The translations under genes and the position numbers were made by a program. Below are positions 258 to 37,195 of a DNA stretch of 38,235 nucleotides, piece after piece. Each line of letters opens with the position of its first letter. Position 1 is the first letter of the stretch. The notes beneath the pieces are model-generated. The model saw only the letters and a list, made by a program, of their open reading frames with translations. It was not told where the DNA came from and searched no databases. This stretch comes from Bacteroidales bacterium (GTDB lineage Bacteria; Bacteroidota; Bacteroidia; Bacteroidales; P3): positions 1 to 38,235 of the forward strand of contig JAKSMQ010000015.1 of NCBI GenBank assembly GCA_024400565.1, in the 5' to 3' direction.

Positions 258-345
258 TCGTGAGCCTAGGTATTCTCCGTTTTGCTGCGCTCCGCTTGCA
301 ATCCCTACGGGACCACTATCGACAGCCACTGGCTATCTTCACATT
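258..345 (+). repeat. Palindromic repeat element, copy 1 (in transposase C-terminus)
   Basis: The core is CTATCGA followed by an imperfect palindrome centred on C329 (AGCCA-C-TGGCT, 324-334, extended to 321-337 with one mismatch) and then TTC. A second small hairpin, TCCC-TAC-GGGA, lies at 302-312. It separates the conserved VEHVFGF helix of the transposase from its tail (TRTIGFVRAK), so it is an insertion. The outer limits are estimates. Confidence 0.6.
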
Positions 346-739
346 CCTCAAAGCCAAACACATGTTCCACTCGGCTACGGATGGATGACTTCTTTCGGTT
401 TGATTCTTTCTGTTCTTCTGTCAACGGGTGGTTCCTGTATCCCTTTTCGCAGATTTCATCTATCATATCCCATTTCGCCAATATGTTGCATTGTCCGACA
501 TAGGCCGAATCCGCATAAATCGATTGACCCTGATCCGACTCGTCCAGCAGATAGTCTAATGCCTGAGAATCATGCAGCGAAGCTGCGGAGGCCAGGCATT
601 TCTTGATGAATTTGCCTACTTTGTCCATCTTTATGTGGTTTTTATATCCAAAGTAGTTCTGCCCGCCTTTCTGAGTCCATCTGGCATCTATATCCTTCTG
701 TTTCTTCTTGTTGGAATTGTCGTTCCACAAATCGCCTCC

Positions 740-792
740 GTTGCCATTTGGATTCTCCGCTTCGCTATCGAAGATTCACTGAATCTTCTTCA
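740..792 (+). repeat. Palindromic repeat element, copy 2 (in transposase middle)
   Basis: ATTCTCCG, CTTCGCTATCGA and a perfect 19-bp palindrome, GAAGATTCA-C-TGAATCTTC (770-788), follow one another. On the minus strand the insert keeps the transposase frame but brings in a TGA stop between the ENK and NGNGGDLWND parts of the protein. The minus-strand flank TATGAAGAA is shared with the copy at 10053-10087. Confidence 0.65.
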
Positions 793-1096
793 TATCCTTA
801 TTCTCGTCTCTGGAATTATGCTGCTTGGGAGCCAGCACAAAGCTGGCATCAATAATCTGACCTTCATTGAATATCAGCCCCTTCGAGTTGAGTTCGTCCA
901 CAAGCTGCTGAAATAGTTTCTCTGACAGTCCCGACTTCGCCATCTTTTCCGAGAACGCCCAGATCGTCTTCTCGTCGGGCACCTTATCTCCAGAAGCGAG
1001 TCCGAGGAAATCTTTGAAACTCTGGCGGTCTGTAATCTGGTATTGGACCTGATGGTCGCTCAAATTATAGTAATGCTTGATAACCATCACCTTGAA

Positions 1097-1169
1097 CGAT
1101 TCGTAGTGGAGTGTCCGAATGCTTGCTTTCGAGACCGGAACGGAGAATCGAGCATGCACACTGCATGAA
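1097..1169 (+). repeat. Palindromic repeat element, copy 3 (in transposase N-terminus)
   Basis: A 73-bp insert (70 bp plus a repeated GAA, seen at 1094-1096 and 1167-1169) splits codons for ...VVMMF and KVMVIKHYYN of the transposase and shifts the frame. It contains CGGAGAAT, then ATCGA, then CATGCA-CAC-TGCATG. This is the same CACTG-centred hairpin plan with a different stem. The GAA repeat could be a 3-bp target duplication. Confidence 0.6.
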
Positions 1170-1458
1170 CATCATCACTACGTCGTATGGCTTGGCGCCT
1201 GCATTGTTCTTTTTCTTTTTGTTCTCGAACACGTCTTCTAATGCATTGCGGAACATTTCAAAGTCAATCACTTGTGATAATCTTTCAAGCGGATTACCCA
1301 GTGCGGAGAGATTTTCCTTCGTATTTTGCGTGTCAAACAAGGTGACTGACCCGAGTCTCTTGTATTTTGCCATAGGTTTCGTGATTAAGTACATAATAAT
1401 AACGGAAAATCTATATATTTATTTCATTGTCAGTAAATTAATTTTTAGAGGTTACCTA

Positions 1459-1466
1459 TATTTTTG
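1459..1466 (+). promoter_or_regulatory. -7-like element TATTTTTG upstream of a small ORF
   Basis: TATTTTTGCAC matches the -7 consensus and lies 27 bp before an ATG at 1494. No good -33 element is seen. Confidence 0.3.
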
Positions 1467-1493
1467 CACTCGTATTCTTAAAGAAAAATTGTT

Positions 1494-1631
1494 ATGAAAA
1501 AGATGCGTTTTATATGTTCCCTCAATAAAGACTGGTTCTATAGTGCCTGTACACTGCCTGTACACTGCCTGTACCCCCGGGGGTACGGAAAGCATATAGA
1601 CATAGGTCCGCCACAACGAAATCAGTACTGA
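1494..1631 (+). CDS. Possible 45-residue peptide, doubtful
   Basis: An ATG at 1494 opens a 45-codon frame beginning MKKMRFICS and ending at TGA (1629-1631). It follows a -7-like element. The frame runs through an 11-bp tandem repeat and a 16-bp palindrome, so the latter half is unlikely to be selected protein. It may be the first codons of a lost gene. No family is recognised. Confidence 0.15.
   Translation: MKKMRFICSLNKDWFYSACTLPVHCLYPRGYGKHIDIGPPQRNQY
1544..1586 (+). repeat. 11-bp tandem repeat (3 units) abutting a perfect 16-bp palindrome
   Basis: Units of TGCCTGTACAC stand at 1544-1554 and 1555-1565, with a third variant (TGCCTGTACCC) at 1566-1576. They run into GTACCCCCGGGGGTAC (1571-1586), a perfect palindrome. 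Confidence 0.8.
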
Positions 1632-1699
1632 TCTAGAATGAGCAAACTGTTCGCTGAATCTTTTTTACACAAAGGAGCTCTTGACCATAGTTCGCACCA

Positions 1700-1780
1700 A
1701 CCTTCAAGGCCAAAGTTGCCATCGAGGCAATCAAGGAAATCGAGACAACGGCAGAACTCGCCGAACGATTCAAAGTCATC
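1700..1780 (+). pseudogene. IS3-family OrfA remnant
   Basis: Read from 1700, the frame gives TFKAKVAIEAIKE, then TTAELAERFKVI. This is the start of the helix-turn-helix of IS3-family OrfA transposases (usual form FKAKVALEAIK...ELA). Neither a start codon nor a continuation survives. It lies next to the broken IS5-type element, so this stretch has collected mobile DNA. The remainder of 1632-2048 holds no recognisable gene. Confidence 0.55.
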
Positions 1781-1874
1781 ACTTTTGTATGCCTAACACA
1801 AATTAAACCATTGTATAAATTGTTTAAAAACGGGGAGTACTATAAAATATTTTCCCCATTTGCTTCATTATTCG

Positions 1875-1882
1875 TATCTTTG
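1875..1882 (+). promoter_or_regulatory. -7 promoter element TATCTTTG
   Basis: TATCTTTGCA is the canonical Bacteroidota -7 element. It would give a leader of roughly 160 nt before the ATG at 2049, and might serve that gene and the barrel protein after it. The -33 match is poor. Confidence 0.45.
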
Positions 1883-2048
1883 CATTCAGGTAGTGGACGA
1901 TAATAAATTTTGTATCTGATTGATTCTTATCACCAAGAGCACAAAATTCCACTAACTCTCTCAACTTATACTGAAGGAAATTCAACATAAATAAATTATT
2001 TAAACAGGTTATTTTGATAACAACAGCTATAGGAGAATACAGACCATA

Positions 2049-2354
2049 ATGAAACAACTCAGGAAATCGCTACTTCTTTTTGTAGCAACTCTTATTCTCG
2101 GAGTTGCTGAGGGATGGCATTGGGTTTCCGACAGCACGGATCTCTCCTATAATGTTTCCAGCTGCGAATTTGAGGACGACGAGAATTTCGATATCCTGAT
2201 ACATTCGCCATTTATCAATATGCTGGTGGCCGAGACCGACTTCAGTCCCGACCTGCCTGTTCATCATATAGACTGGCTGATAGAAGATGAGGCATCCGAG
2301 GGTGTTGTCTGTCCCATCAGCCTTCCCCTTCGCGCTCCTCCCGTTGTAGGCTGA
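2049..2354 (+). CDS. Small exported protein of unknown function (101 aa)
   Basis: The N-terminus (MKQLRKSLLLFVATLILGVAEG) is a likely signal peptide or membrane anchor. The rest is acidic, with a DSTDLSY and EFEDDENFD stretch, and ends in a Pro/Val tail. No conserved family motif is recognised. It lies 130 bp upstream of the barrel-protein gene on the same strand and may be co-transcribed with it. Small exported proteins often precede TonB-receptor-like genes in this phylum, but that parallel is inference. It could instead be a truncated remnant of a longer gene. Confidence 0.5.
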   Translation: MKQLRKSLLLFVATLILGVAEGWHWVSDSTDLSYNVSSCEFEDDENFDILIHSPFINMLVAETDFSPDLPVHHIDWLIEDEASEGVVCPISLPLRAPPVVG

Positions 2355-2401
2355 TAAGACTACTCCTTTTCTATTATTTCCCTGCCGCTTCGCAGAAGAC
2401 C

Positions 2402-2422
2402 GGGCATTTCACTAGTATGCCC
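2402..2422 (+). repeat. Short hairpin, GGGCAT...ATGCCC
   Basis: A 6-bp stem with a 9-nt loop containing CACTAG lies between the small exported protein and the barrel gene. It is followed by CCTCTCC and not a T run, so it is a weak terminator or attenuator. It may be a worn relative of the CACTG-centred palindromes. Confidence 0.3.
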
Positions 2423-2484
2423 CTCTCCGTCGAAGTGAGACTGGCATGTAGTATCATTTTATCAACCTTTCAACTTATTCAGAA

Positions 2485-4929
2485 ATGAAGCAATATATCA
2501 TCACAATACTTCTCGTTTCTCTGGCCGCTAGCCTATGGGGCCAGAACCGCACAATAGGAGGGAAAGTCATCGACGGACAGACCCTCGAACCCCTCCCCTT
2601 TGCCAATGTAGCTCTTTATACAAAAGGCGACACCCTGTTCTATCGGGGCAAATCAACCGACCTTAACGGATTTTTCACAATCGGCGATGTTGCCTCGGGA
2701 TCCTATCTCCTTCGCGTCACTATGGTCGGCTACCAGACATACAATAATACCATTGACCTGACTGACGACCCCGAACCGTTCACCATCAGGCTATCGGGTG
2801 GCAGTCAGCTTAGCGAAGTACAGATAACAGCCGCCCGACCTGTTTTTACCATGGATGGCGAGAAAAATATCTACAACACCTCGGACGATCCTTCCATCCA
2901 GAACGGGACAGCCATCGATGCCTTGCAAAACGCGCCCGGAATCGAAGTCGACGCCGAAGGTAACATCCGTTTGCGCGGCACGCAAGAGGTTAGCATCTGG
3001 ATTAACGGGCGTGAGAGCCGTATGAACCAGGAATCGCTCAAACAATATTTCAAGACCATGCCGGCCAATGCCATAAAGCAGATAGAGGTAATAACCAACC
3101 CTTCGGCCCGCTATGGGGGAGGACGGCCGGTAGTGAATATTGTTACCCTCGAGACCGGACGGCACGACCAGTTTCTGACCTTCGGAATCAACAGCAGCAC
3201 CAAGCCTGAGCTCACGCCTTGGATTTCCTATATCTTCAGCAATCCGAAATGGGAAATCGACCTCTATGCCAACACGGCCTTTATGAGGGAGACATCCTTG
3301 CTGACAGGCTCCGACGCCCTACTGGACATCAACGGCGATACCGCACGTACGGATAACTATAGACGCCACTCGACCGAAAGAAGTCTCGGAACTCTTTTCT
3401 CGGCCGATATTGCGTTCCACCCCGACAGCAGAACCGCCTGCTACCTTTGGGCTTCGGTAATGCCTTCCTGGACCCGATGGGATGCCACCCTATCGACTAA
3501 CCGCATCGAATACCGATATCAGCCCGGCGACCACTCCTTTACGGAGCGTTCGTCAAAACCCTATGGCAACAGACCCGGCGGGGGATTTCTGGATGGCATC
3601 TGGTTCGAGAAATCGTTCGACGACAGCACGGGACATATGCTTATGCTCGGCTATTATGGGAGTCTCTGGAACCGCGATAGCGCCATCTACTGCATGCGAC
3701 AGTATCAGAACCTTACGGCAAACTCCGTCGCCTACAACCAGTTGCATAGCGAAAAAGAATGGTTTCATGCCTTGGAGGCCACCTATCTGAAGCCCTTTGG
3801 AGTCCGCGACTCGGTCACGACGCTCTTCTCCAACGAGTTCGAGGCCGGACTCGAAGCCAGCCTAAGCCACGCCAATACCCTCGTTACGACCGATACGATC
3901 TCCGATAACCTTCGGGCCCATTGCGGATGGCTCAGTAGCGAAACGCTCTCCTCCTCTTCTTCGGTATCGGTCTACGCCAGTCTGCTCCACAGATGGGGAA
4001 GGCTGACGATAAAAGGAGGTCTGCGCGGCAATCTCGAAACGGGTAGCTACAACTATCCCGATGCTCCCGAACACAATTTCAGCCATTCAAACCGCTATTT
4101 AACCCCCTCCCTCCACCTCACCTGGTCGTCGCCCAGACATCAGACATTTGCTCTAGGTTATTCCCGACGGGTTTCCGCTCCCGAAGTGAGGAGCTATAGC
4201 TCCAGAAGGGTCTATAATCTTGACGGATTTTCGGTAGGGAACCCTCTATTGAAGAACGGATCCCACCACCACTTTGAACTCAAGTGGGACAAGTATAAAG
4301 ACGGACTTGGGTCTGTCGGAATCAACGCATTCTATCTGGCCCAGACCAACCATCAGGGATTGCTCACCGACGTAGTGTTCGACAACCAGATGTTCCATCG
4401 TGTTGTAGCCTTCAGCCAGCCTGTCAACATCGGCAACGCATGGAACGGAGGAGCCGACATCCATCTCGTCTACCGTCCCAACGCCTACCTCAATGTCCGC
4501 CTGAACGGCAGCCTCTTCTACGACTATCTGCAGCTTAATTACAGAGAGGGCCCAGCCTACAGCAACGGCATGTTCTGCTATTCGTTCCGTCTCAACGTGT
4601 GGATGAAGGTGAGGAATACCGTCCAGATTTTCGGCAACGCCTATTACAGCAGTCCCACCCAAAACATGCTTACCGCCTCCTTGTCCAGGAAGGGTGTCGA
4701 CCTGGGACTGAATGCCGACCTCTTCCATAGGTTGCTAAGTGTCAATCTCAGCATCAACGACATTTTCGACTGGAACAACTGGATGACAGCCAATTCGAAC
4801 CCCTATCTGATCAGCAGCACCTGTCTCAAACAGCAAAGCCGATACGTCAGCCTTGGACTGACTTTCCGTTTCGGACAGATGGATCTTGAAAGAGAGGTCG
4901 TAAAACCACGACCACGCCCGTCAAGATAA
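2485..4929 (+). CDS. Outer-membrane beta-barrel / TonB-dependent receptor-like protein
   Basis: The 814-residue protein begins with a signal peptide (about 1-20, cleaved after LWGQ). A CarboxypepD-regulatory-like beta-sandwich follows (about 23-105; GKVIDGQTLEPLPFANV ... VGYQTY). A plug domain (about 125-225) carries the typical DALQNAPGIEVD and IRLRGT signatures. The rest is a barrel of the OMP_b-brl_3 type, ending in LGLTFRFG plus a short basic tail. Such proteins sit in the outer membrane and move or bind substrates with TonB energy. No SusD partner or sensor is adjacent, so the substrate cannot be guessed; the SusC-type TonB box is not evident. Sites like NGRES in the plug are usual for this barrel family, not for SusC. 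Confidence 0.88.
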   Translation: MKQYIITILLVSLAASLWGQNRTIGGKVIDGQTLEPLPFANVALYTKGDTLFYRGKSTDLNGFFTIGDVASGSYLLRVTMVGYQTYNNTIDLTDDPEPFTIRLSGGSQLSEVQITAARPVFTMDGEKNIYNTSDDPSIQNGTAIDALQNAPGIEVDAEGNIRLRGTQEVSIWINGRESRMNQESLKQYFKTMPANAIKQIEVITNPSARYGGGRPVVNIVTLETGRHDQFLTFGINSSTKPELTPWISYIFSNPKWEIDLYANTAFMRETSLLTGSDALLDINGDTARTDNYRRHSTERSLGTLFSADIAFHPDSRTACYLWASVMPSWTRWDATLSTNRIEYRYQPGDHSFTERSSKPYGNRPGGGFLDGIWFEKSFDDSTGHMLMLGYYGSLWNRDSAIYCMRQYQNLTANSVAYNQLHSEKEWFHALEATYLKPFGVRDSVTTLFSNEFEAGLEASLSHANTLVTTDTISDNLRAHCGWLSSETLSSSSSVSVYASLLHRWGRLTIKGGLRGNLETGSYNYPDAPEHNFSHSNRYLTPSLHLTWSSPRHQTFALGYSRRVSAPEVRSYSSRRVYNLDGFSVGNPLLKNGSHHHFELKWDKYKDGLGSVGINAFYLAQTNHQGLLTDVVFDNQMFHRVVAFSQPVNIGNAWNGGADIHLVYRPNAYLNVRLNGSLFYDYLQLNYREGPAYSNGMFCYSFRLNVWMKVRNTVQIFGNAYYSSPTQNMLTASLSRKGVDLGLNADLFHRLLSVNLSINDIFDWNNWMTANSNPYLISSTCLKQQSRYVSLGLTFRFGQMDLEREVVKPRPRPSR

Positions 4930-4980
4930 TACGTTATCAAATCTGCTCTCGTTCCTCAAACCTGTAGCAGACTTTTAAAT

Positions 4981-5013
4981 CTCAGGCGGGGTACCTCAAG
5001 TGCCCCGCCTGAG
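4981..5013 (+). terminator. Strong hairpin after the barrel-protein gene
   Basis: CTCAGGCGGGG (4981-4991) pairs perfectly with CCCCGCCTGAG (5003-5013) around an 11-nt loop. A TTTTTGGGG run follows at about 5028, not directly next to the stem. It is most likely the terminator of the 2485-4929 gene. The rest of 4930-5364 shows no supported gene. Confidence 0.55.
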
Positions 5014-5325
5014 TCATCATTGGCATTTTTGGGGGGTCGCCTTTGATTTGGGGTGTCTTCGGATGATTTTTTGCCTATCGGCAACGTCTTCGTCCTCTCC
5101 TTTTTGCAACCGAAACCATCGTCCAAAGTGTTTCTTCGCAAATGAAAACAGGCAAATTCTTTTTCGACCCGCGAGAAATCTATATGTGCCGTCACACTCT
5201 AAAGGCTTTATACCCGTAATCTTATAACCCAAGCCAACAGGCTGGATAATATATCATTATGAATTTCATACAGAAATCCCCCTAAAAAATACGAAGAAAG
5301 TACCGGAGGAACAAATTGTTTTTAG

Positions 5326-5333
5326 TATTTTTG
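5326..5333 (+). promoter_or_regulatory. -7 promoter element TATTTTTG
   Basis: TATTTTTGCA lies 32 bp before the ATG at 5365, a normal placement for a Bacteroidota -7 element. A matching -33 box is not clear. Confidence 0.5.
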
Positions 5334-5364
5334 CATTCCGAAAACCGCCTGATGAATTGTCGCT

Positions 5365-5733
5365 ATGAACAGAATCGCTCAGTTTCTTTTAGAGAACGGA
5401 TGCCCTTATCATGAAGAGGGCGGTCTGGAGACTTATGTATTGGACCTTGAGCAGTCGCTTCGCTTTGTTGATCTAGCGGAAGAAGAACTGGTTTCAATTA
5501 TCGGCGGAGACGTGTATTGCAAATGCAAATCGGGGTTCTCTATCGGCGAATATTTCTATCTGGCATGGTCGTGCGACAGCAATAAGGAGGCGGAAAGAGG
5601 GACTAGAGGGTACTTTGAATATAGCTTGGAGCTGGCCCGGAACAATATACAGCGGATTAAAAAAACCTCGGAACGGCAGAAAGCCGATCTGTATATCGGT
5701 TTTGTCTACGAGCATAATCTCCCTCAGTCGTAG
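5365..5733 (+). CDS. Imm40-like immunity protein (122 aa)
   Basis: This is a cytoplasmic protein with no signal peptide. The pattern IIGGDVYCKCKSGF, then YLAWSC, then a final helix (SLELARNNIQRI) resembles the Imm40 group of polymorphic-toxin immunity proteins. In those, an ILGGDVY-like strand is followed by a Trp-containing strand and a C-terminal helix. The assignment is from memory of the family and needs a profile search. No toxin gene is seen beside it, so it would be an orphan immunity gene of the kind kept against neighbours' toxins. It has its own promoter-like element. The next gene starts 69 bp downstream and encodes an exported protein that is probably unrelated. Confidence 0.5.
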   Translation: MNRIAQFLLENGCPYHEEGGLETYVLDLEQSLRFVDLAEEELVSIIGGDVYCKCKSGFSIGEYFYLAWSCDSNKEAERGTRGYFEYSLELARNNIQRIKKTSERQKADLYIGFVYEHNLPQS

Positions 5734-5802
5734 CCGACCGAAGGATGTGGTTTTTGGCCTAAAGAAAGAAAAACGATTCAGACTTATACTACATTTATAC
5801 GA

Positions 5803-6372
5803 ATGATGAAAAACAAACTCCTTCTGCTGCTGTTGCTTTCAGCCTTTGTTCCGATGAAGGTTTCGGCTCAAATCTCCCTGACCGTCGACAGCCTCATCGT
5901 GGAAAAGGTTTTATGGATAAGCCGGAACGATATCTGGATTGAAGATTTTGCCTACGGGCCACATCTGCGTTTTGTGTGCTCTGTAACGAACAATACTGAG
6001 GATACAATCGTGATAAACTTGAATGAGGCTCTTTCTCTGGAATCTGACACACGGAAAAAGCTCAACAGAAGGATCTACGTGGACTATGCCGACAACGATT
6101 CGACGCTATCCATACCCTCCCGTTGCCGGGCTCAAATAGAGGGCGAGATCGACGCATGGTTCATTCTGGACAACAAGAGAACCGTCAGGGACAATTATCT
6201 GATTGTTGATTTCATGCCAGGAATCTCCAAACTGGTCAGGAAATCGCATGTTGTCATCAGGCCAGAAAATCAGTCCCCTCTGAAAGCAACCATGAGGAAT
6301 TGCTTTGTGGGAAGGGACTTTTTCAAAGACGGTACATTCAACGAACCGATTATCGATATCAAAGAGAAATAG
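5803..6372 (+). CDS. Exported protein of unknown function (189 aa)
   Basis: The N-terminus (MMKNKLLLLLLLSAFVPMKVSAQ) is a clear signal peptide. The mature part is beta-rich, with CSVTNNTEDTIVINL suggesting an immunoglobulin-like or DUF4352-like sandwich for a periplasmic or surface protein. Two ATGs, at 5803 and 5806, could start it; nothing decides between them. It faces the minus-strand unit across 30 bp, and no terminator is seen between the two. No function is assigned. Confidence 0.6.
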   Translation: MMKNKLLLLLLLSAFVPMKVSAQISLTVDSLIVEKVLWISRNDIWIEDFAYGPHLRFVCSVTNNTEDTIVINLNEALSLESDTRKKLNRRIYVDYADNDSTLSIPSRCRAQIEGEIDAWFILDNKRTVRDNYLIVDFMPGISKLVRKSHVVIRPENQSPLKATMRNCFVGRDFFKDGTFNEPIIDIKEK

Positions 6373-6402
6373 CACCCGAAGAACGTACGGCTTTCCCTGT
6401 TC

Positions 6403-7671
6403 CTAGAACGATATTCCTATGCCAAACTCACGGTAACGATTGGCATTGGGCACATTGACATAGGTAGGCAACAGGTTGACAAAGAAATGCAGACCATGGA
6501 ATATACCCAGCACATTGCTCTCTACACCCACGCGAAGCTCTAGTCTGAAAGGATTGGAGAAACTGTCGTTATGACCTATAGATTCCGTGTCGGTATACAA
6601 CGTGTAGTCGCTGAGACTGATTATGCTTGGAAGAAGTTCGAAATTAATACCGAGGGCCTCTGGTTTGTGATAGGAAGGATGGTAGGTCACACTCATAGGC
6701 ACACCAAATGCAAATTGCATGTTGATCCTTTTTCTGACATAAGAATAAGATTCTGTCTCTCCGAAGTACTCGGAATTCATAGAATAAAAGGGGGTATAGT
6801 ATGCGTCGAACTGCAATCCGGTTTTAATATCCCAGCAACGGTTGAATTTCCACTTGCCATAAACCGAAGCACTCAAATTAAAACGTCTATTGAAATAGGC
6901 TGTGTTTGTGATATTGAAGACCTCGTTGTTTGCCAGATTGTACAGTACCCTCGCGCCAGCCCCTATATGGAGAGAGAAACGGTCGTCGAACCTTACGTTG
7001 GGGGCCTCGGTCCATACGGGCAAAATTCTTGACATCGGACCATGATAGGATTTTACTACGCTACGGTCGATACCTTCTCGTTTGATGGGCAACTGTCCGT
7101 AGCACGTTCCCTGATTCAAGTCGGTAAGCAGCTGGTCGACTTCTATCTGCTTGCAGTCAAGGTAGCAACTATCACCCAGAAATCCCAAAAACAGCGATGA
7201 CGAAGCCAGCGTGTCGACCACCAGTCGACTCTGCTCTCTTTGAGCTATCATAAGTTCGCCATAGCCTTCAAGACGGCTTGAGGTGAGCTTAGCACGGGGA
7301 CGGAGTTCTATGCGGCTGATACGCTGTGCTGTGAAGATATCAACCCTGGTACCTTGCGGTAACGAGGCGTTCTTCTTCAAGCGGAGTACTCCGTTTTTAA
7401 GTATGAAGACATCGGAAGATTTCACCCCGCCGGGGATGCACACTTCAATCCGGTTCAGGCTTTTAAGTACGCATTGATTGACTTCCGGATCATATTCCTC
7501 CGAACGGCGGAGCAACAGGTTGTTGTATTCTGCCGTCTGAATCAGGTGGGCATCCCAGCCCTCATCGACTACAATCTGGTCGTAGTCCTTATCCAAGAAG
7601 AATGTTGTACGTTGCTGCGCCCATGAGGTACAGCTTATCAACAGAAACAGAAAGAGAACATATCGTCTCAT
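6403..7671 (-). CDS. GIN/DUF2807-like adhesin domain plus outer-membrane barrel (422 aa)
   Basis: A signal peptide (to SWAQ, about residue 19) leads into a stretch of repeated short strands (about 25-190). Examples are IVVDEGWDAHLIQ, RIEVCIPGGVKSSDVFILKNG, then RISRIELRPRAKL. This is the layout of GIN/DUF2807 beta-helix domains, in which each turn carries a 'value' strand. From about 225 the sequence is amphipathic barrel and ends in FGIGISF, a terminal aromatic typical of outer-membrane proteins. It is the last gene of a minus-strand unit, 18 bp after the single-pass membrane protein and downstream of an ECF sigma factor. It is therefore a likely target or partner of that sigma system. Confidence 0.65.
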   Translation of the reverse strand: MRRYVLFLFLLISCTSWAQQRTTFFLDKDYDQIVVDEGWDAHLIQTAEYNNLLLRRSEEYDPEVNQCVLKSLNRIEVCIPGGVKSSDVFILKNGVLRLKKNASLPQGTRVDIFTAQRISRIELRPRAKLTSSRLEGYGELMIAQREQSRLVVDTLASSSLFLGFLGDSCYLDCKQIEVDQLLTDLNQGTCYGQLPIKREGIDRSVVKSYHGPMSRILPVWTEAPNVRFDDRFSLHIGAGARVLYNLANNEVFNITNTAYFNRRFNLSASVYGKWKFNRCWDIKTGLQFDAYYTPFYSMNSEYFGETESYSYVRKRINMQFAFGVPMSVTYHPSYHKPEALGINFELLPSIISLSDYTLYTDTESIGHNDSFSNPFRLELRVGVESNVLGIFHGLHFFVNLLPTYVNVPNANRYREFGIGISF

Positions 7672-7689
7672 AATTTATTCGTTTTATGG

Positions 7690-8274
7690 TTATTTGACTC
7701 TAATTGAAAAATTACCACCTTCGGTATTGGGGTCGGCAACAGAACCGAAATGAAGCCTCAAGCCGCCACTACGTTTGCTGGCCTGAAAGACACAAACTGC
7801 AGTCTCATCACTCTCGGGTTCGGAAGGCTCATCAGACTCGACGACTGCTGCATACAACTGAGGTTCCTCAACCAGGGGAAGAGCCTGCACTTCTTCCACT
7901 TCAACGGATTGTTGAATCTGTTCTTCGGCTATTATCTGAGGTTCTTCTTCGGCCTCTGATGTCAACTCTAAAGTATGGATATCGGAATGAGAGGTTTGCT
8001 CCAAATTAACGATTCTGTCTTTTCGAGAAACAATCTTCGTATTGGCTGACATACGATCCACATGCACATTTTCTTGCTGAGCTACTATCACAGGTTGGGG
8101 TTCCGTCAAGTAGTTGCTTCCCGAAGGCCATAACCATACGGATGCGACTACCGCCACAAGGGACACTCCGCCTACCCATCCTCGGCGACGACGCACTAAT
8201 GCAGCATGGAGCGTATCTATTCTTTCCAGAATCTCCGCCTGCATCTGTTGGTCTTCTCGTTCTATATCTTTCAT
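7690..8274 (-). CDS. Single-pass membrane protein, possible anti-sigma factor
   Basis: The likely start is the ATG at 8274 (MKDIERED), not an upstream one 10 codons earlier, because the extra residues look like non-coding DNA. A short acidic cytoplasmic N-terminus with LERIDTLHAALVRRRR leads to one membrane segment (about residues 37-54: VGGVSLVAVVASVWLW). A long, acidic, low-complexity periplasmic part follows (Glu-rich, VEVEEVQALPLVEEP) and the protein ends SIRVK. Its place directly after an ECF sigma factor and this topology fit an anti-sigma factor or a sigma-linked membrane sensor. No ZAS zinc motif or FecR domain is seen, so the role is inference from position. Confidence 0.55.
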   Translation of the reverse strand: MKDIEREDQQMQAEILERIDTLHAALVRRRRGWVGGVSLVAVVASVWLWPSGSNYLTEPQPVIVAQQENVHVDRMSANTKIVSRKDRIVNLEQTSHSDIHTLELTSEAEEEPQIIAEEQIQQSVEVEEVQALPLVEEPQLYAAVVESDEPSEPESDETAVCVFQASKRSGGLRLHFGSVADPNTEGGNFSIRVK

Positions 8275-8310
8275 AATACGAAAATAGTAATATTGGTAAA
8301 ACAATCCATT

Positions 8311-9009
8311 TTAAAATCTGTAGTTTATACCCAGTCTACCCGTAAAAAACCCCTGAAGGCCACCACTTAAAATCGAACCAACCTGGGATTCAGAAATCAA
8401 GACCGTACAAGTAGTCATTGAAAGTTCACCCACAGCAGACCAATGATTCGAGAATCGATATTGTAATCCTGCATTCAGGCGCTGAGTGAATCCAACAAAC
8501 GGAGTAATCTCGTATCTTTTGATGCAGCCCTCGCGATCGCTGATCAGATAATAATCCGTGAAAGTATGGAACACACCTCCAAAGCTTAATCCCAAATAGG
8601 GATCTAGCTTGCTGATGTTCGGCTTTTTGAGCAAATGAAATCTTAAGCCACCAAGAAAATACAGATTAGCTGCTGTTTCATAATCCAGGCCTGGTCCGGA
8701 GTATAGCACCTGACCGTCTGGAGAATAGTGTATTTCCCAACTACTAGCAGGGTCTGCCGGTACTGTATAGAGGCATTGGTTAGCCTCTACAGAGGCAGTC
8801 AGTTCCCAACGATTGCCGAGTTTGAACCCATAGTCTATTCCATACACGGGCGAAGTATGGTATATATAGAAACATGGGCTATACATCAAACTTATTGAAT
8901 GTCGCAAAGAGTCTTTCTGTTTCCCGACCTCCCATACCCGGGGTTCCTGAGCCTTAAGGCTGACAACTGTCAGCATACTGAGAATAAAAATCATCAAAGT
9001 CTTTTTCAT
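8311..9009 (-). CDS. Exported outer-membrane barrel-like protein, internal start
   Basis: From the internal ATG at 9009 the product is 232 residues. A signal peptide comes first (MKKTLMIFILSMLTVVSLKAQ). Alternating strands follow, such as SISLMYSPCFYIYHTS, YLGLSFGGVFHTFTDYY and GLQYRFSNHWSAVGEL, ending in GRLGINYRF with the terminal Phe of outer-membrane barrels. This is most likely the true second gene of the sigma unit, translated separately from its own ATG. It is followed by the single-pass membrane protein after 36 bp. Family: small OmpW/Opa-like barrel, not specified further. Confidence 0.6.
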   Translation of the reverse strand: MKKTLMIFILSMLTVVSLKAQEPRVWEVGKQKDSLRHSISLMYSPCFYIYHTSPVYGIDYGFKLGNRWELTASVEANQCLYTVPADPASSWEIHYSPDGQVLYSGPGLDYETAANLYFLGGLRFHLLKKPNISKLDPYLGLSFGGVFHTFTDYYLISDREGCIKRYEITPFVGFTQRLNAGLQYRFSNHWSAVGELSMTTCTVLISESQVGSILSGGLQGFFTGRLGINYRF

Positions 9010-9504
9010 ATTGGTATTATTTTTTGGGGTTTCAGAAGAGAACCCGTCTCTCAGCTTGCTGATAACACGGTTGAGACGTACACGCACATTACCCTCGCTG
9101 ATATCAAGCCGACGGCTCATTTCTCTTCCCGAAGTATGTTCCCAATAGCGCATCTTCAATAGCTGGCGTTCTTCCTCGGGCAGGTCGGATATCCTCCGTT
9201 GGAGCTCTTCAAACAGATATTCCCTTCCTTCTGTGTCGCTGTCAGAATCATCTGCAATCTCGCTCAGTCCCTGCAAAGCAGGTCGACTCTTGAGCAAGTC
9301 AATACTCTTGAACTGAACCATTCTGACGCAATAACCTTCTAAGTTCGCCACCTTGCTTAGCCTATGGCGCTGTTGCCACAGTTCTATCATAAGATCCTGT
9401 ACCAAGTCCTTGGCGTCTGCCTTGGAGTCGAGCATACGCTCCGCCATACGTTGCATGGGAGGCTGAAGGACGGGGACCAGTCGTTTGAATTCTTCGGTAT
9501 TCAC
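8311..9504 (-). CDS. ECF sigma factor joined in frame to an exported barrel protein
   Basis: Residues 1-165 are an ECF sigma-70 factor. Region 2 is about 10-75 (DAKDLVQDLMIELWQQR). Region 4 is about 110-160 (LPEEERQLLKMRYW, then EMSRRLDISEGNVRVRLNR). It directs RNA polymerase to its own promoter set. Without any stop the frame runs on, through ETPKNNTN, into MKKTLMIFILSMLTVVSLKAQ at 166. That is a signal peptide followed by a barrel-like protein. A signal peptide in the middle of a cytoplasmic factor makes no sense as one stable product. The junction is CCA AAA AAT AAT. A -1 shift on A-AAA-AAT meets TAA at once. Loss of one A gives a TGA overlapping the downstream ATG as ATGA. The fusion is therefore either recent, slippage-controlled or a read error. 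Confidence 0.75.
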   Translation of the reverse strand: MNTEEFKRLVPVLQPPMQRMAERMLDSKADAKDLVQDLMIELWQQRHRLSKVANLEGYCVRMVQFKSIDLLKSRPALQGLSEIADDSDSDTEGREYLFEELQRRISDLPEEERQLLKMRYWEHTSGREMSRRLDISEGNVRVRLNRVISKLRDGFSSETPKNNTNMKKTLMIFILSMLTVVSLKAQEPRVWEVGKQKDSLRHSISLMYSPCFYIYHTSPVYGIDYGFKLGNRWELTASVEANQCLYTVPADPASSWEIHYSPDGQVLYSGPGLDYETAANLYFLGGLRFHLLKKPNISKLDPYLGLSFGGVFHTFTDYYLISDREGCIKRYEITPFVGFTQRLNAGLQYRFSNHWSAVGELSMTTCTVLISESQVGSILSGGLQGFFTGRLGINYRF

Positions 9505-9628
9505 TTTAGGTGGTTAGAATCGGGTTATTACAGGTAATTAACGTGTACTTACTGTTTTTATGTCTGCAAAATGATAAAAATGTTACAAAAAAAGAAGAAA
9601 AAAATGTCATTACTGTACGTTTTTATCT

Positions 9629-9760
9629 GGATTCAGTTTGGATTTGACTTGAATTCGGCCTAGATTCAGCCTAGGCTCGACTTAGGTTCGACCTAGGTTC
9701 GACTTAGGTTCGACCTAGGTTCGGCCGGGTTCGACTACCATTGATCTACGGTCGACCTTT
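9629..9760 (+). repeat. Twelve 11-bp units in strict phase
   Basis: The stretch divides without any indel into twelve 11-bp units, best matched by AGGTTCGACCT and AGGTTCGACTT (9673-9727). Units towards both ends drift but hold the phase. CCTAGG/CTTAGG at each junction is near-palindromic. It lies just upstream of the sigma-factor gene in a 740-bp stretch with no gene. Confidence 0.9.
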
Positions 9761-9839
9761 TATCGGCCGCCTTTCTATCCACTTCTATAGGTAGCGAGAA
9801 AGAGTTTCGGTTATACTTCAGTTATAGCGTTCTCGTTTT

Positions 9840-10087
9840 TTACTCCTCCTATGTCGTAGCCACATCCTTTAGGAGTGCTTCTCTGATGCTCTTCTTTACG
9901 GCTATGTACGGAGGAACGGTATACGTTGTATTTGAAATCAAAATACATATGGGGTGTCTCAGCAAGGCTTTTTTTATTTGCTCTCCCATAGCCGCCCTCT
10001 GGGCGTGCGCCTACGGCTATCGAACCCTCCACTGGAGGCTTCTCATGCTTCGCTATCGAAAAGTCCACTGGACTTTTCTTCATACTT
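9840..10087 (+). repeat. Composite palindromic repeat element, copies 4 and 5
   Basis: Two CTATCGA-hairpin modules lie in tandem. One is at 10017-10043 (GAACCCTCCA-C-TGGAGGCTTC, one mismatch). The other is at 10053-10081 (GAAAAGTCCA-C-TGGACTTTTC, a perfect 21-bp palindrome, 10058-10078). Before them are CCCTCTGGGC and GCCTACGGC motifs like those in copy 1, and other short inverted repeats back to about 9840. On the minus strand the whole stretch stays open and would read ...DFSIAKHEKPPVEGSIAVG, a peptide I believe recurs in Bacteroidales genomes as a repeat-derived hypothetical. Confidence 0.65.
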
Positions 10088-27196: not shown

Positions 27197-29089
27197 TTAC
27201 TTGATAATATCTACACTACGCTTGATGAAGTTGGTAAGCGCTTCGCCCTTCAGGAGACCATTGCTGAGAAGAGCAAGGTCGGTAAGCTGGTGGACAAGCT
27301 GCTTCTGCTTGGCTTCGTCAGATTCCTGGAGCACCTGTTCAATAAGAGGATGATTGGTATTGACTACAAGATTGTAGTTCTCGGGCAGTTCGCCATAGAA
27401 GCCCATACCGCCACCACTAGTCTGACTCATCTCCTTGTAACGGCGCATAAACTCGCTCTGGGTGATAACCATAGGCTGGTCGTCGCTTTCGAGAGCCTCG
27501 AGCTGAACAGTAAATTTCTCTTTGTTGATCTCTCCTTCGATAATAGGTTTGAGCTGATCCTTCTGCTCCTGGGTCATCTTCTCAGGAACTTCACCATCCT
27601 TGGCGATCAACTTGTCTACAACATCGCCGTCAACACGGGTAAAGCGAGTCTTCTCGAGCTTCTGTTCAAGGAGATTGACGAAGTGGCTGTTGAGAACGCT
27701 ATCCATAAGAAGCACGTCGTATCCGCGGTTCTTGGCCTTGTCGATATAGGAGTATTGCTCGTCGCGATCGGTTGCATAAAGGATAATAACATTCTTATCC
27801 TTGTCAGTCTGGAGAGGAGCCACCTGGTCGCGATACTCGTCGATAGGAATATACTTGCCTTCGGTAGTCTTGAAGAGATAGAACTTCTGGGCACGTTTTG
27901 CGAACTCCTCGTCGGTAAGCATACCATATTCAATAAAGATCTTGATATCGTCCCACTTCTTCTCAAAGTCCTCGCGGTCGTTCTTGAACATGCTCTCAAG
28001 TTTGTCGGCTACCTTCTTGCTGATATGGGAAGAAATCTTCTTCACATTGCTGTCGCTCTGAAGGTAGGAACGGCTTACGTTGAGAGGAATATCGGGAGAA
28101 TCCAATACGCCATGGAGCAGCATCAGATAGTCAGGAACCACGCCTTCTACGCTATCGGTAACAAATACCTGATTGCAATAGAGCTGAATCTTGTTGCGGT
28201 TAGGATCGATGGTTTTCTTGATTTTGGGGAAGAAAAGAACACCTGTGAGGTTGAAAGGATAATCCACGTTGAGGTGAATTTGAAAGAGAGGATCTTCAAA
28301 ATTCATAGGATAGAGTTCGTGATAGAATTTCTTATAGTCCTCATCGGTAAGATCGGCAGGTTTCTTGCGCCATGCAGGTTCGGTATTGTTGATGATACGG
28401 GGCTGTTTTACCTCCTCGCGTTCAATATGGCCGTCTTTATCTTTCTTGGGTTCGCCATTCTTGTCGAGTTTATCAACCCAGTTGCTCTCTTCGCCAAAAC
28501 GGATGGCTACGGGCATAAAGCGGCAGTATTTCTTCAGAAGCTGAAGAATACGCTGTTCTTCGAGGAATTCCTTGCAGTCGTCGCTGACGTGCAGGATGAT
28601 ATCCGTTCCGCGCTCTTTCTTCTTGCATTCCTTCATTTCATAGGTAGGAGAACCGTCGCAAACCCAATGCATAGCGGGAGCGTCCTTGTGGCTCTTGGTC
28701 TCAATTTCCACCTTGTCTGCCACCATAAATGCACTATAGAAGCCCAATCCGAAATGTCCGATCAGGTTTTCGCCCATGTCTTTATATTTCTCCAGGAACT
28801 CTTCTGCTCCAGAGAATGCAATCTGGGTAATGTATTTCTCAATCTCCTCGGCGGTCATACCTATACCATGGTCGCTGATGATAAGTTTGCCCTTCTGGAT
28901 CTTTACTTCAATAGTGAGATCGCCTAAATCGCCTTCCACTTTACCCATCGAGGAGAGGGTTTTCAGCTTCTGGGTAGCATCGACAGCATTACTAACTAAC
29001 TCGCGGAGGAAAATCTCGTGGTCGCTATAAAGGAATTTCTTGATAACGGGAAAAATGTTCTCGGTCTGAACGTTAATATTACCTTGCAT
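27197..29089 (-). CDS. htpG: Molecular chaperone HtpG (Hsp90 family)
   Basis: The GHKL ATPase N-domain is clear: FLRELVSNAVDATQK, ISDHGIGMT, GHFGLGFYSAFMV. A middle domain (NRNKIQLYCNQVFVTD; LNVSRSYLQSD with the catalytic-loop Arg) and a C-terminal dimerisation domain follow. At 630 residues it is close to E. coli HtpG and lacks any long linker. It is an ATP-driven cytoplasmic chaperone. It stands alone on the minus strand with its own hairpin terminator. A 13-bp palindrome upstream (29162-29174) may be an operator. Confidence 0.96.
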   Translation of the reverse strand: MQGNINVQTENIFPVIKKFLYSDHEIFLRELVSNAVDATQKLKTLSSMGKVEGDLGDLTIEVKIQKGKLIISDHGIGMTAEEIEKYITQIAFSGAEEFLEKYKDMGENLIGHFGLGFYSAFMVADKVEIETKSHKDAPAMHWVCDGSPTYEMKECKKKERGTDIILHVSDDCKEFLEEQRILQLLKKYCRFMPVAIRFGEESNWVDKLDKNGEPKKDKDGHIEREEVKQPRIINNTEPAWRKKPADLTDEDYKKFYHELYPMNFEDPLFQIHLNVDYPFNLTGVLFFPKIKKTIDPNRNKIQLYCNQVFVTDSVEGVVPDYLMLLHGVLDSPDIPLNVSRSYLQSDSNVKKISSHISKKVADKLESMFKNDREDFEKKWDDIKIFIEYGMLTDEEFAKRAQKFYLFKTTEGKYIPIDEYRDQVAPLQTDKDKNVIILYATDRDEQYSYIDKAKNRGYDVLLMDSVLNSHFVNLLEQKLEKTRFTRVDGDVVDKLIAKDGEVPEKMTQEQKDQLKPIIEGEINKEKFTVQLEALESDDQPMVITQSEFMRRYKEMSQTSGGGMGFYGELPENYNLVVNTNHPLIEQVLQESDEAKQKQLVHQLTDLALLSNGLLKGEALTNFIKRSVDIIK

Positions 29090-35877: not shown

Positions 35878-36402
35878 ATGAAATACAAAAAATCTCTGTA
35901 TGTAATGAAGCTCAAATCAAATCTCATACTTGTATTAATTTTGACGCTTGCCACTTATGCAAACGCTCAAAGGGGCACAAATCTGACGAGTGAACAATCT
36001 TTCCCTCAATTCCATACCTTGGCTGTATTATCCGACACAACCTGTTACATTAAAATTATGCACGATTACAAGATAGCGCAACTGATGGACAGTTTAGCCT
36101 CTGCCAAGAAATCGGGCGAATGCTTGAATGATTTTGCCGTCAAAGTAATGAGAGCCAGATTAACTCTATTACAGGAAATTAGCAATAAATATTATCCGAG
36201 GAACACCATGGAGAACATCCGATGTATTTTATACAATTTATACCGTTTGACAGGGATTAAACATAAAGAAGATCATGATTTCTTCGGATATACATTTATC
36301 TCATCATACTCAATATCACAATATGAGAAATGGCTGGAGTCAAATAAAGAGAGACTATGTATCGATCCAGTCTCCAGGATTTTGTTTGTTACGCAAGAGT
36401 AA
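35878..36402 (+). CDS. Exported protein of unknown function (174 aa)
   Basis: A signal peptide covers about residues 10-30 (MKLKSNLILVLILTLATYANAQ); the ATG at 35905 (MKLKSN) is as likely a start as 35878. The mature part is mostly helical (MHDYKIAQLMDSLASAKKSG, then VMRARLTLLQEISNKYY) and has three cysteines. No family is recognised. A strong promoter precedes it. Its last codons (LFVTQE) and 3' flank are repeated at 37064-37195. The repeat ends a frame reading LFLFVPQE, so a second copy of this gene, or a paralogue, once stood there. Confidence 0.6.
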   Translation: MKYKKSLYVMKLKSNLILVLILTLATYANAQRGTNLTSEQSFPQFHTLAVLSDTTCYIKIMHDYKIAQLMDSLASAKKSGECLNDFAVKVMRARLTLLQEISNKYYPRNTMENIRCILYNLYRLTGIKHKEDHDFFGYTFISSYSISQYEKWLESNKERLCIDPVSRILFVTQE

Positions 36403-36510
36403 TCAAATGATTTTATCTACAGGACCCCAAAAGACCATTATTTTCTCAAGCCTAAGTTGATTGCTATGAAAACACGAAGAGTCCCAGCCCAGACTCCTCA
36501 AAAAAGACAA
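36380..36510 (+). repeat. 131-bp direct repeat, copy A
   Basis: This copy is nearly identical to 37064-37195, with about four substitutions and one A of length difference. It covers the last codons of the 35878 gene, the spacer and the first 15 codons of the zinc-ribbon gene. Confidence 0.9.
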
Positions 36511-37063: not shown

Positions 37064-37195
37064 TTTTGTTTGTTCCGCAAGAGTAATCAAATGGTTTTAT
37101 CTACAGGACCCCAAAAGACCATTATTTTCTCAAACCTAAGTTGATTGCTATGAAAACACGAAGAGTCCTAGCCCAGACTCCTCAAAAAAAGACAA
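37064..37195 (+). repeat. 132-bp direct repeat, copy B
   Basis: It repeats 36380-36510. The zinc-ribbon start at 37150 (MKTRRVLAQTPQKKTRIDF) runs into a stop after 19 codons because the sequence diverges right after the repeat. 36993-37379 holds nothing else recognisable. Confidence 0.9.

Follow-up and report, generated by a model that had tools for sequence, protein, structure and literature searches.

The stretch of DNA analyzed here, 38,235 nucleotides of a Bacteroidales bacterium (contig JAKSMQ010000015.1 of assembly GCA_024400565.1, hereafter the window), carries copies of a short dispersed palindromic repeat, which is probably a non-autonomous and very small mobile element, recognized as a folded strand and inserted in trans. 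The repeat presents covariation in its principal hairpin (hairpin 1), paired variants of a second hairpin (hairpin 2) in a minority of the copies, and filled and empty alleles without target duplication; furthermore, it features a T-rich tail, the loss of target nucleotides, in-frame copies in conserved genes and, in the samples searched, a distribution limited to a single genus. A first-pass annotation of the window had already suspected a small mobile element with covarying stems, and both the alleles and the copies found elsewhere agree with that suspicion.

On the + strand of the window, the unit consists of a T-run, a G or A, TTCTCC, hairpin 2, TATC, hairpin 1, TTCA and a final C or T, and is about 43 nt long, plus the T-rich tail. 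Its architecture was read on 182 copies, a copy being dropped if its start was not TTCTCCG-like or if its flanks were short or repeated; 180 of these could be parsed for hairpin 2 and 169 for hairpin 1. Hairpin 1 has the form GAA..CC-ACT-GG..TTC, where the foot (GAA/TTC) and the apex (CC-ACT-GG) are mostly fixed and the middle is free. The loop is ACT in 149 of the 169 parsed copies, with ACC, ACA and others in the rest, and perfect pairing occurs in 113, among which 28 distinct arm sequences are represented. Hairpin 2 is usually GC-TTC-GC (102 of 180 copies); 7 copies have the paired variant GT..AC, and each of the longer paired forms is represented by a single copy, namely, GCCC..GGGC (three versions), GCAC..GTGC, GCCAC..GTGGC and GGC..GCC; in 4 copies it is unreadable. 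Fold prediction returned hairpin 1 alone, with an energy of about -6 to -7 kcal/mol for both strands with the energy set as loaded.

Upstream of TTCTCC, the T frequency across the 182 copies is 49 to 70% at positions -6 to -2, and position -1 is G or A in 74%. In particular, a T-run of at least 3 precedes the -1 base in 78 copies, compared to 2 copies when the same count is made ten nt further upstream, and the run length on the + strand varies from 0 to 7, with 0 in 54 copies. Neither a CGTC nor a GTAG tag is present at either foot of hairpin 1, where the adjoining letters are TATC and TTCA (TGAA and GATA on the opposite strand), and TTCTCC and TTCA, at the two ends of the unit, do not form an inverted repeat. 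Tandem units also occur, in which TTTG, TTCTG or a similar sequence closes each inner unit ahead of the next TTCTCC, and self-nested copies exist too. Locus L271 has, at 1117-1327, an open frame over five units of about 42 nt arranged head to tail, which would be translated as a 14-residue peptide repeat.

The four copies in the window are given below with their scores, where reported, in a covariance model (R1) built from 17 equal-length copies taken from four genomes.

273..341, + strand: copy 1, a long version, TTCTCC ... CCCTACGGG ... TATC + GACAGCC-ACT-GGCTATC + TTCA, with one C-A mismatch
753..793, + strand: copy 2, TTCTCCGCTTCGCTATC + GAAGATTC-ACT-GAATCTTC + TTCAT, R1 55.1 bits
10018..10046, + strand: copy 4, a degenerate relative, TATC + GAACCCTCC-ACT-GGAGGCTTC + TCAT, 9-bp stem with one C-C mismatch
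10040..10083, + strand: copy 5, GCTTCGCTATC + GAAAAGTCC-ACT-GGACTTTTC + TTCAT, R1 62.2 bits

The pattern CTATCGA-N3..14-CACTG-N4..12-TTC has four matches in the window, against none in the 100 dinucleotide shuffles of it that served as the control; a looser pattern was unspecific, giving 13 matches in the genome of the window and 5 in a backward control, with most relatives near their control. Copy 1 is a weak R1 match (314-342, 18.4 bits, E 9e-4), and copy 4 (10017-10046) was matched by the pattern and by eye, with no R1 match at an E value of 0.001. The first-pass annotation had united five copies in one family, with TCGA ahead of a fixed CACTG center and each stem matched by its own complement. 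Copies 1, 2, 4 and 5 do belong together, and the remaining one (copy 3, near 1160) does not; the center is more exactly an ACT loop closed by C-G pairs, and the loop is not ACT in every copy of the family; the stems are paired, with mismatches in copies 1 and 4, that is, in two of the four genuine copies.

The conservation of pairing rather than of sequence is supported, strongly for hairpin 1 and on fewer variants for hairpin 2. In a set of 124 copies collected with an exact pattern, which fixes the foot and the apex and leaves the inner stem free, the inner arms are exactly complementary in 102 copies, against a mean of 9.3 and a maximum of 21 in 2000 shuffles, and the complement is the commonest partner for 21 of the 29 distinct left arms. 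Since related copies are not independent events, the count of arms weighs more than that of copies. The covariance model, a check of this kind having been proposed for the window's hairpins, likewise displays compensatory changes: in the alignment fitted with R1 (88 distinct rows, a few of them short antisense matches to these palindromes), 96.6% of the cells are paired, against 52 to 71% in slid controls, and 8 of 9 pairs are changed on both sides. Such antisense rows come from a set of 126 matches, and rows shorter than 38 nt were left out of most counts, though kept in this alignment; among 75 distinct full-length rows, all four Watson-Crick types occur at two pairs. A second set gave 97.1% pairing, 33 to 64% in slid controls, and 6 of 9 pairs changed on both sides. 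A search of 100 of at least 114 loci gave 161 matches, 150 of which were aligned.

Filled and empty alleles, identified by matching both flanks, could be compared at about a dozen sites, such as one insertion sequence (IS) filled in genome G044 and empty in G111 (L124, L128), a KilA-N gene (L195 filled, L198 empty), the gene for pyruvate:ferredoxin oxidoreductase (PFOR; L083 filled, L283 empty), and the pairs L199 versus L265 and L278 versus L271. At 11 sites, the target lost 4 to 10 nt between the aligned flanks, or 2 to 9 nt if the letters shared with the unit end are credited to the target. When these 11 sites were reread, no direct repeat longer than 2 nt was found to join the flank ends, which share no letter at 9 sites, 1 nt at one and 2 nt at one. 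At several coding sites (L195, L083 and L199), the empty allele lacks the T-rich stretch. Insertion beside a preexisting TGAA was also considered and was dropped because several empty alleles have no TTCA/TGAA at the site.

Copies lie in frame, by homology, inside MurC, lysyl-tRNA synthetase (LysRS), HtpG and PFOR; the HtpG of G059 has the insert, and the window's htpG is without it. One PFOR site holds the unit with identical boundaries but with two different stems, namely, GAAGCTCC for L083 and L256 and GAAGAGCC for L204 and L292, the left flanks of the latter two being identical; this switch reflects either compensation in place or two insertions at the same position. Among 84 distinct copies with long flanks, 17 are in frames open for at least 50 codons on both sides, compared to 44% of random positions in the same loci; it follows that copies are underrepresented in long frames. 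In the second set, 23 of 193 copies are in frames at 60 codons, some of them spurious. We rejected an open frame alone as proof of gene insertion because some frames over tandem copies (L271, L313) look spurious and because the in-frame copies of L195, L196, L206 and L208 are outside the matched domain; Pfam gave no match for 2 of the 10 frames scanned. The KilA-N gene of L195 (1009-1974) contains two in-frame units, and the frame in which the unit is read differs between the two.

As to the distribution, 120 genomes of the window's genus were surveyed, together with an order sample of 393 genomes and a phylum sample of 395, the last two under stricter filters and with few candidates scored per genome. 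Within the genus, R1 matches occur in 104 genomes at an E value of 0.01, and the best match is at or below 1e-6 in 95 of them; the other 9 may be chance. The copy number goes from 0 to at least 53 per genome, the top counts being lower bounds, with 27 in the window's own genome. There, several copies lie within about 1.6 kb of the contig ends (C16, C23, C35, C38, C54, C55 and C57), so the repeat may break assemblies and the count may be too low. Two genomes of the order sample matched at 1e-6, both in the window's genus, and none of the 391 outside it did, including 3 of a sister genus; in the phylum sample, 6 genomes matched at 1e-4, namely, the window's own and five with single matches of 25 to 30 bits, which we take as chance. 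A Bacteroidales-wide scope, as supposed at first, is therefore too broad for these samples. The 80 matches listed from named genomes come from Bacteroidales or Bacteroidetes metagenome-assembled genomes, many of them from rumen or other gut, and include 'bacterium P3' (Candidatus Hemicellulosilyticus sp. P3 in the taxonomy). We did not find the repeat in the open-license literature on Bacteroidales, Bacteroidetes or rumen. Viral spread was discarded as an explanation, as one pattern scan of viral contigs gave no exact consensus copy.

It is possible to hypothesize how the element would move. A single strand would fold into two hairpins with TATC between them, and an enzyme acting in trans would recognize this shape together with the fixed letters TTCTCC, TATC, CC-ACT-GG and TTCA. 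The enzyme would insert a copy at a new site, removing 2 to 10 nt of the target without duplicating it, and one end would gain a T-run of variable length and then a G or A. Selection for recognition would keep the pairing while the stem letters drift, generating stem subfamilies, and landings in genes would survive if the frame is kept and the site is a tolerant loop. We infer that the mobility is current and not just past, that recognition is of a single strand, and that a dedicated enzyme acts in trans. Within this scheme, we lean towards a single-stranded DNA intermediate, with a modest preference, over the less probable RNA or another route. A bolder version can be offered as a doubtful conjecture: a two-hairpin single strand, possibly an A-tailed RNA, would trade 2 to 10 nt of target for the unit and its T-rich tail by a new mechanism, and the unit would be among the smallest mobile elements, adding in-frame peptide loops to core enzymes.

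Several observations weigh against a mobile folded strand. Hairpin 1 is imperfect in 56 of the 169 parsed copies, and 22 of the 124 pattern copies are not perfectly paired. In most copies, the stem of hairpin 2 does not exceed 2 bp, and even this short stem is disrupted in 3 of 180; the hairpin is absent from the fold prediction, so that it rests on its paired variants. Alignments fitted to a covariance model are biased towards structure, and the exact pattern with a free middle is the fairer test because model searches favor paired sequences; in the second alignment, further pair types are no more numerous than in shuffles (14 versus 14.1). The covariation could partly come from a few old subfamilies that expanded, and not from repeated selection. 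The empty alleles belong to other species or loci, and part of the junction loss may thus be later divergence. Finally, no enzyme was found: neither of the two gene proxies considered across the 120 genomes, the PF01797 profile for Y1 transposases and RVT_1 for reverse transcriptases, clearly tracks the repeat when genome-wide counts are compared by Spearman correlation. These comparisons are weakened by incomplete genomes, by lower-bound counts, by the inclusion of weak matches at an E value of 0.01, and by relic copies that outlive a lost enzyme.

The link suggested by the first-pass annotation, to be checked through a Y1 (HUH) gene tracking the repeat, was to repetitive extragenic palindromes (REPs) moved by a TnpA-REP, or REP-associated tyrosine transposase (RAYT). 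The enzyme would be one of the Bacteroidetes subclass 2.6, and we consider this reading unlikely. Y1 matches do occur in 73 of the 120 genomes, and subclass 2.6 is reported as mostly from Bacteroidetes and flanked by atypical secondary structures copied elsewhere in the genome (PMC6006769). However, the rank correlation between Y1 and repeat counts is no more than weakly positive, 0.16 (p 0.08) in the 120 genomes and 0.15 (p 0.21) in the 66 that are at least 90% complete. Furthermore, no PF01797 match was obtained in the many-copy genomes G055 (52 repeat matches, 93% complete) and G076 (27, 95% complete), nor in the window's own genome, which has 27 repeat matches and is only 71.6% complete. 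The unit has no GTAG tag, letters are lost relative to the empty sites, and 39 of the 40 Y1 stretches fetched, a part of all the Y1 matches in the genus, are devoid of the repeat. The sole exception (contig C113 of G005, L134), where two copies lie about 0.1 and 0.7 kb downstream of the Y1 gene, adjoins an array of a different palindrome, CCCCTACGGGG / CCGTGGG..CCCACGG. This array (L134, 3213-3910) is made of units of about 74 nt, GCCGCCCCTACGGGGCTC plus CCGTGGGTTTTCACCCACGG, and is probably the REP array belonging to that Y1 gene; the present unit is nested in it close to either end. Many of the G005 copies are carried within another palindrome array, and a stretch of that array is found with the Y1 gene. 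A Y1/TnpA-REP enzyme as the sole mover was rejected on the correlation, the Y1-less many-copy genomes and the Y1 neighborhoods.

Somewhat less unlikely is an RNA-mediated insertion, in which the opposite strand would exist as an RNA that starts abruptly at its 5' end (AAGAA-hairpin 1) and carries an A-tail (..GGAGAAYAAAAA), to be turned into DNA at a nick in the manner of retroposons. The T-run, which is an A-run on the other strand, has the variable length at one end typical of retroposon tails, is enriched, and is absent from several empty alleles; one end of the unit is fixed, and the target losses are small and without duplication. Yet RVT_1 is present in only 46 of the 120 genomes and is unrelated to copy number (Spearman 0.05, p 0.62), so a reverse transcriptase as the tracking gene gave no signal; moreover, the tests made here do not separate the strands, and the tail may be just a less conserved part of the element. 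We regard as improbable a functional RNA or DNA hairpin (a terminator, an mRNA stability element or a protein-binding site) kept by local selection and spread by recombination: pyrimidines follow hairpin 1, and copies are rarer in long frames than random positions, but copies also lie in frame inside core enzymes, their presence differs between similar alleles, and an Rfam search of the window matched no family. Templated repair of imperfect palindromes, that is, quasi-palindrome correction by strand switching, would yield exact complementarity without function or selection; it accounts neither for the constancy of the flanks and, mostly, of the ACT loop, nor for the paired changes of hairpin 2 or the dispersal to new sites, and we judge it distinctly improbable. 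An ordinary miniature inverted-repeat transposable element mobilized by a DDE transposase is barely credible, since the sites read have no target duplication and the unit ends are not inverted repeats, even though the unit is small, repeated, nested and found in IS.

Compared to known systems, the proposed mobile folded strand shares features with several. IS200/IS605 elements are not known to duplicate the target or to lose part of it when they move. They have hairpins near their ends, as here, and cut beside a short target sequence (PMC6006769), whereas target letters are lost in our case; the atypical structures of subclass 2.6 in the same source can be compared by description and not by sequence. 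REPINs are also hairpin-forming miniature elements with compensatory changes, but they are REP doublets tied to RAYT genes (PMC3116915), different from the single units without a general RAYT link seen here. The REPs tagged with CGTC or GTAG are short dispersed stem-loops of similar stem length (8 to 9 bp for CGTC), some copies of which lie in coding regions, mostly those of known proteins, and the CGTC group, which occurs in Bacteroidetes among other phyla, is reported without a dedicated transposase (PMC3733652). Our unit differs from them in its 3-nt loop (4 to 5 nt in CGTC REPs), the missing tag, the second hairpin, the T-run tail and the single genus in the samples. Rickettsia palindromic elements resemble it in being palindromic, located in frame in protein genes, many of them conserved, and also intergenic (PMC2229807). 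In-frame insertion in conserved protein genes is found here in the four enzymes named above; compared by description only, those elements belong to another phylum and measure 105 to 146 bp, against about 43 nt. The unit seems to work like intragenic REPs and Rickettsia palindromic elements, without their defining marks.

The small dispersed repeats (SDRs) of cyanobacteria look closest in spirit. Elhai et al. reportedly described them in 2008 as 21 to 27 nt long, with compensatory changes and self-nesting, and are said to have suggested an RNA intermediate and a confinement to a coherent subgroup. Compensatory stem changes, self-nesting and a single clade, the features given for SDRs, recur in our family; by description only, the differences are the phylum, the two hairpins, the T-run tail and the target loss. 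SDR5 is cited as inserting precisely in HIP1 sites (PMC4390886).

The family makes the enzyme question testable for palindromic repeats devoid of a transposase, as it offers filled and empty alleles with their junctions, a structural rule that may be disrupted and then re-established, a genus with 120 genomes, and the wide range of copy numbers. Moreover, it adds short peptides in frame to LysRS, MurC, HtpG and PFOR in a lineage far from Rickettsia.

The other features of the window that accompany the copies are as follows.

305..1394, - strand: broken transposase gene in three frame pieces, two of which match DDE_Tnp_1 and DUF772
1098..1170, strand not applicable: copy 3 of the first-pass annotation, a non-member, within a separate insertion of about 73 nt in the transposase gene
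9987..10017, + strand: host repeat, CATAGCCGCCC-TCT-GGGCG..CGGC, in which copies 4 and 5 are nested
27197..29089, - strand: htpG (HSP90), the empty allele of the insertion in frame in the G059 orthologue

The third piece of the transposase gene has no Pfam match, and the gene holds copies 1 and 2 together with the 73-nt insertion. Copy 1 is near the 3' end of a transposase reading frame, and similar long units exist in other genomes of the genus. Copy 2 is inserted in the transposase gene, and the homologous IS of G076 is without it; a T-A pair of this copy creates CAGTGA, whose stop codon, at 776-778, terminates the frame 776-1159. Copy 3 was rejected as a family member, its palindrome (CATGCA-CAC-TGCATG) having no TATCGA ahead of the stem, no R1 match at an E value of 0.001 and a location in a separate insertion, which is bounded by 5-nt TGAAC repeats, present in G003 (L120) and absent from G076. 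Around it, positions 1088-1205 of the window are identical (118 nt) to the IS of G003, the remaining aligned part being about 15% different, which hints at a recent exchange. The host repeat of copies 4 and 5 is found again at other places of the window's own genome, likewise accompanied by the unit, and about 0.3 kb upstream of these copies there is a tandem array (9654-9735) of the 11-nt unit TTCGACCTAGG in 7.5 copies. Towards the end of the window, positions 36380-36505 and 37064-37189 form a direct repeat of 126 nt, 97% identical.

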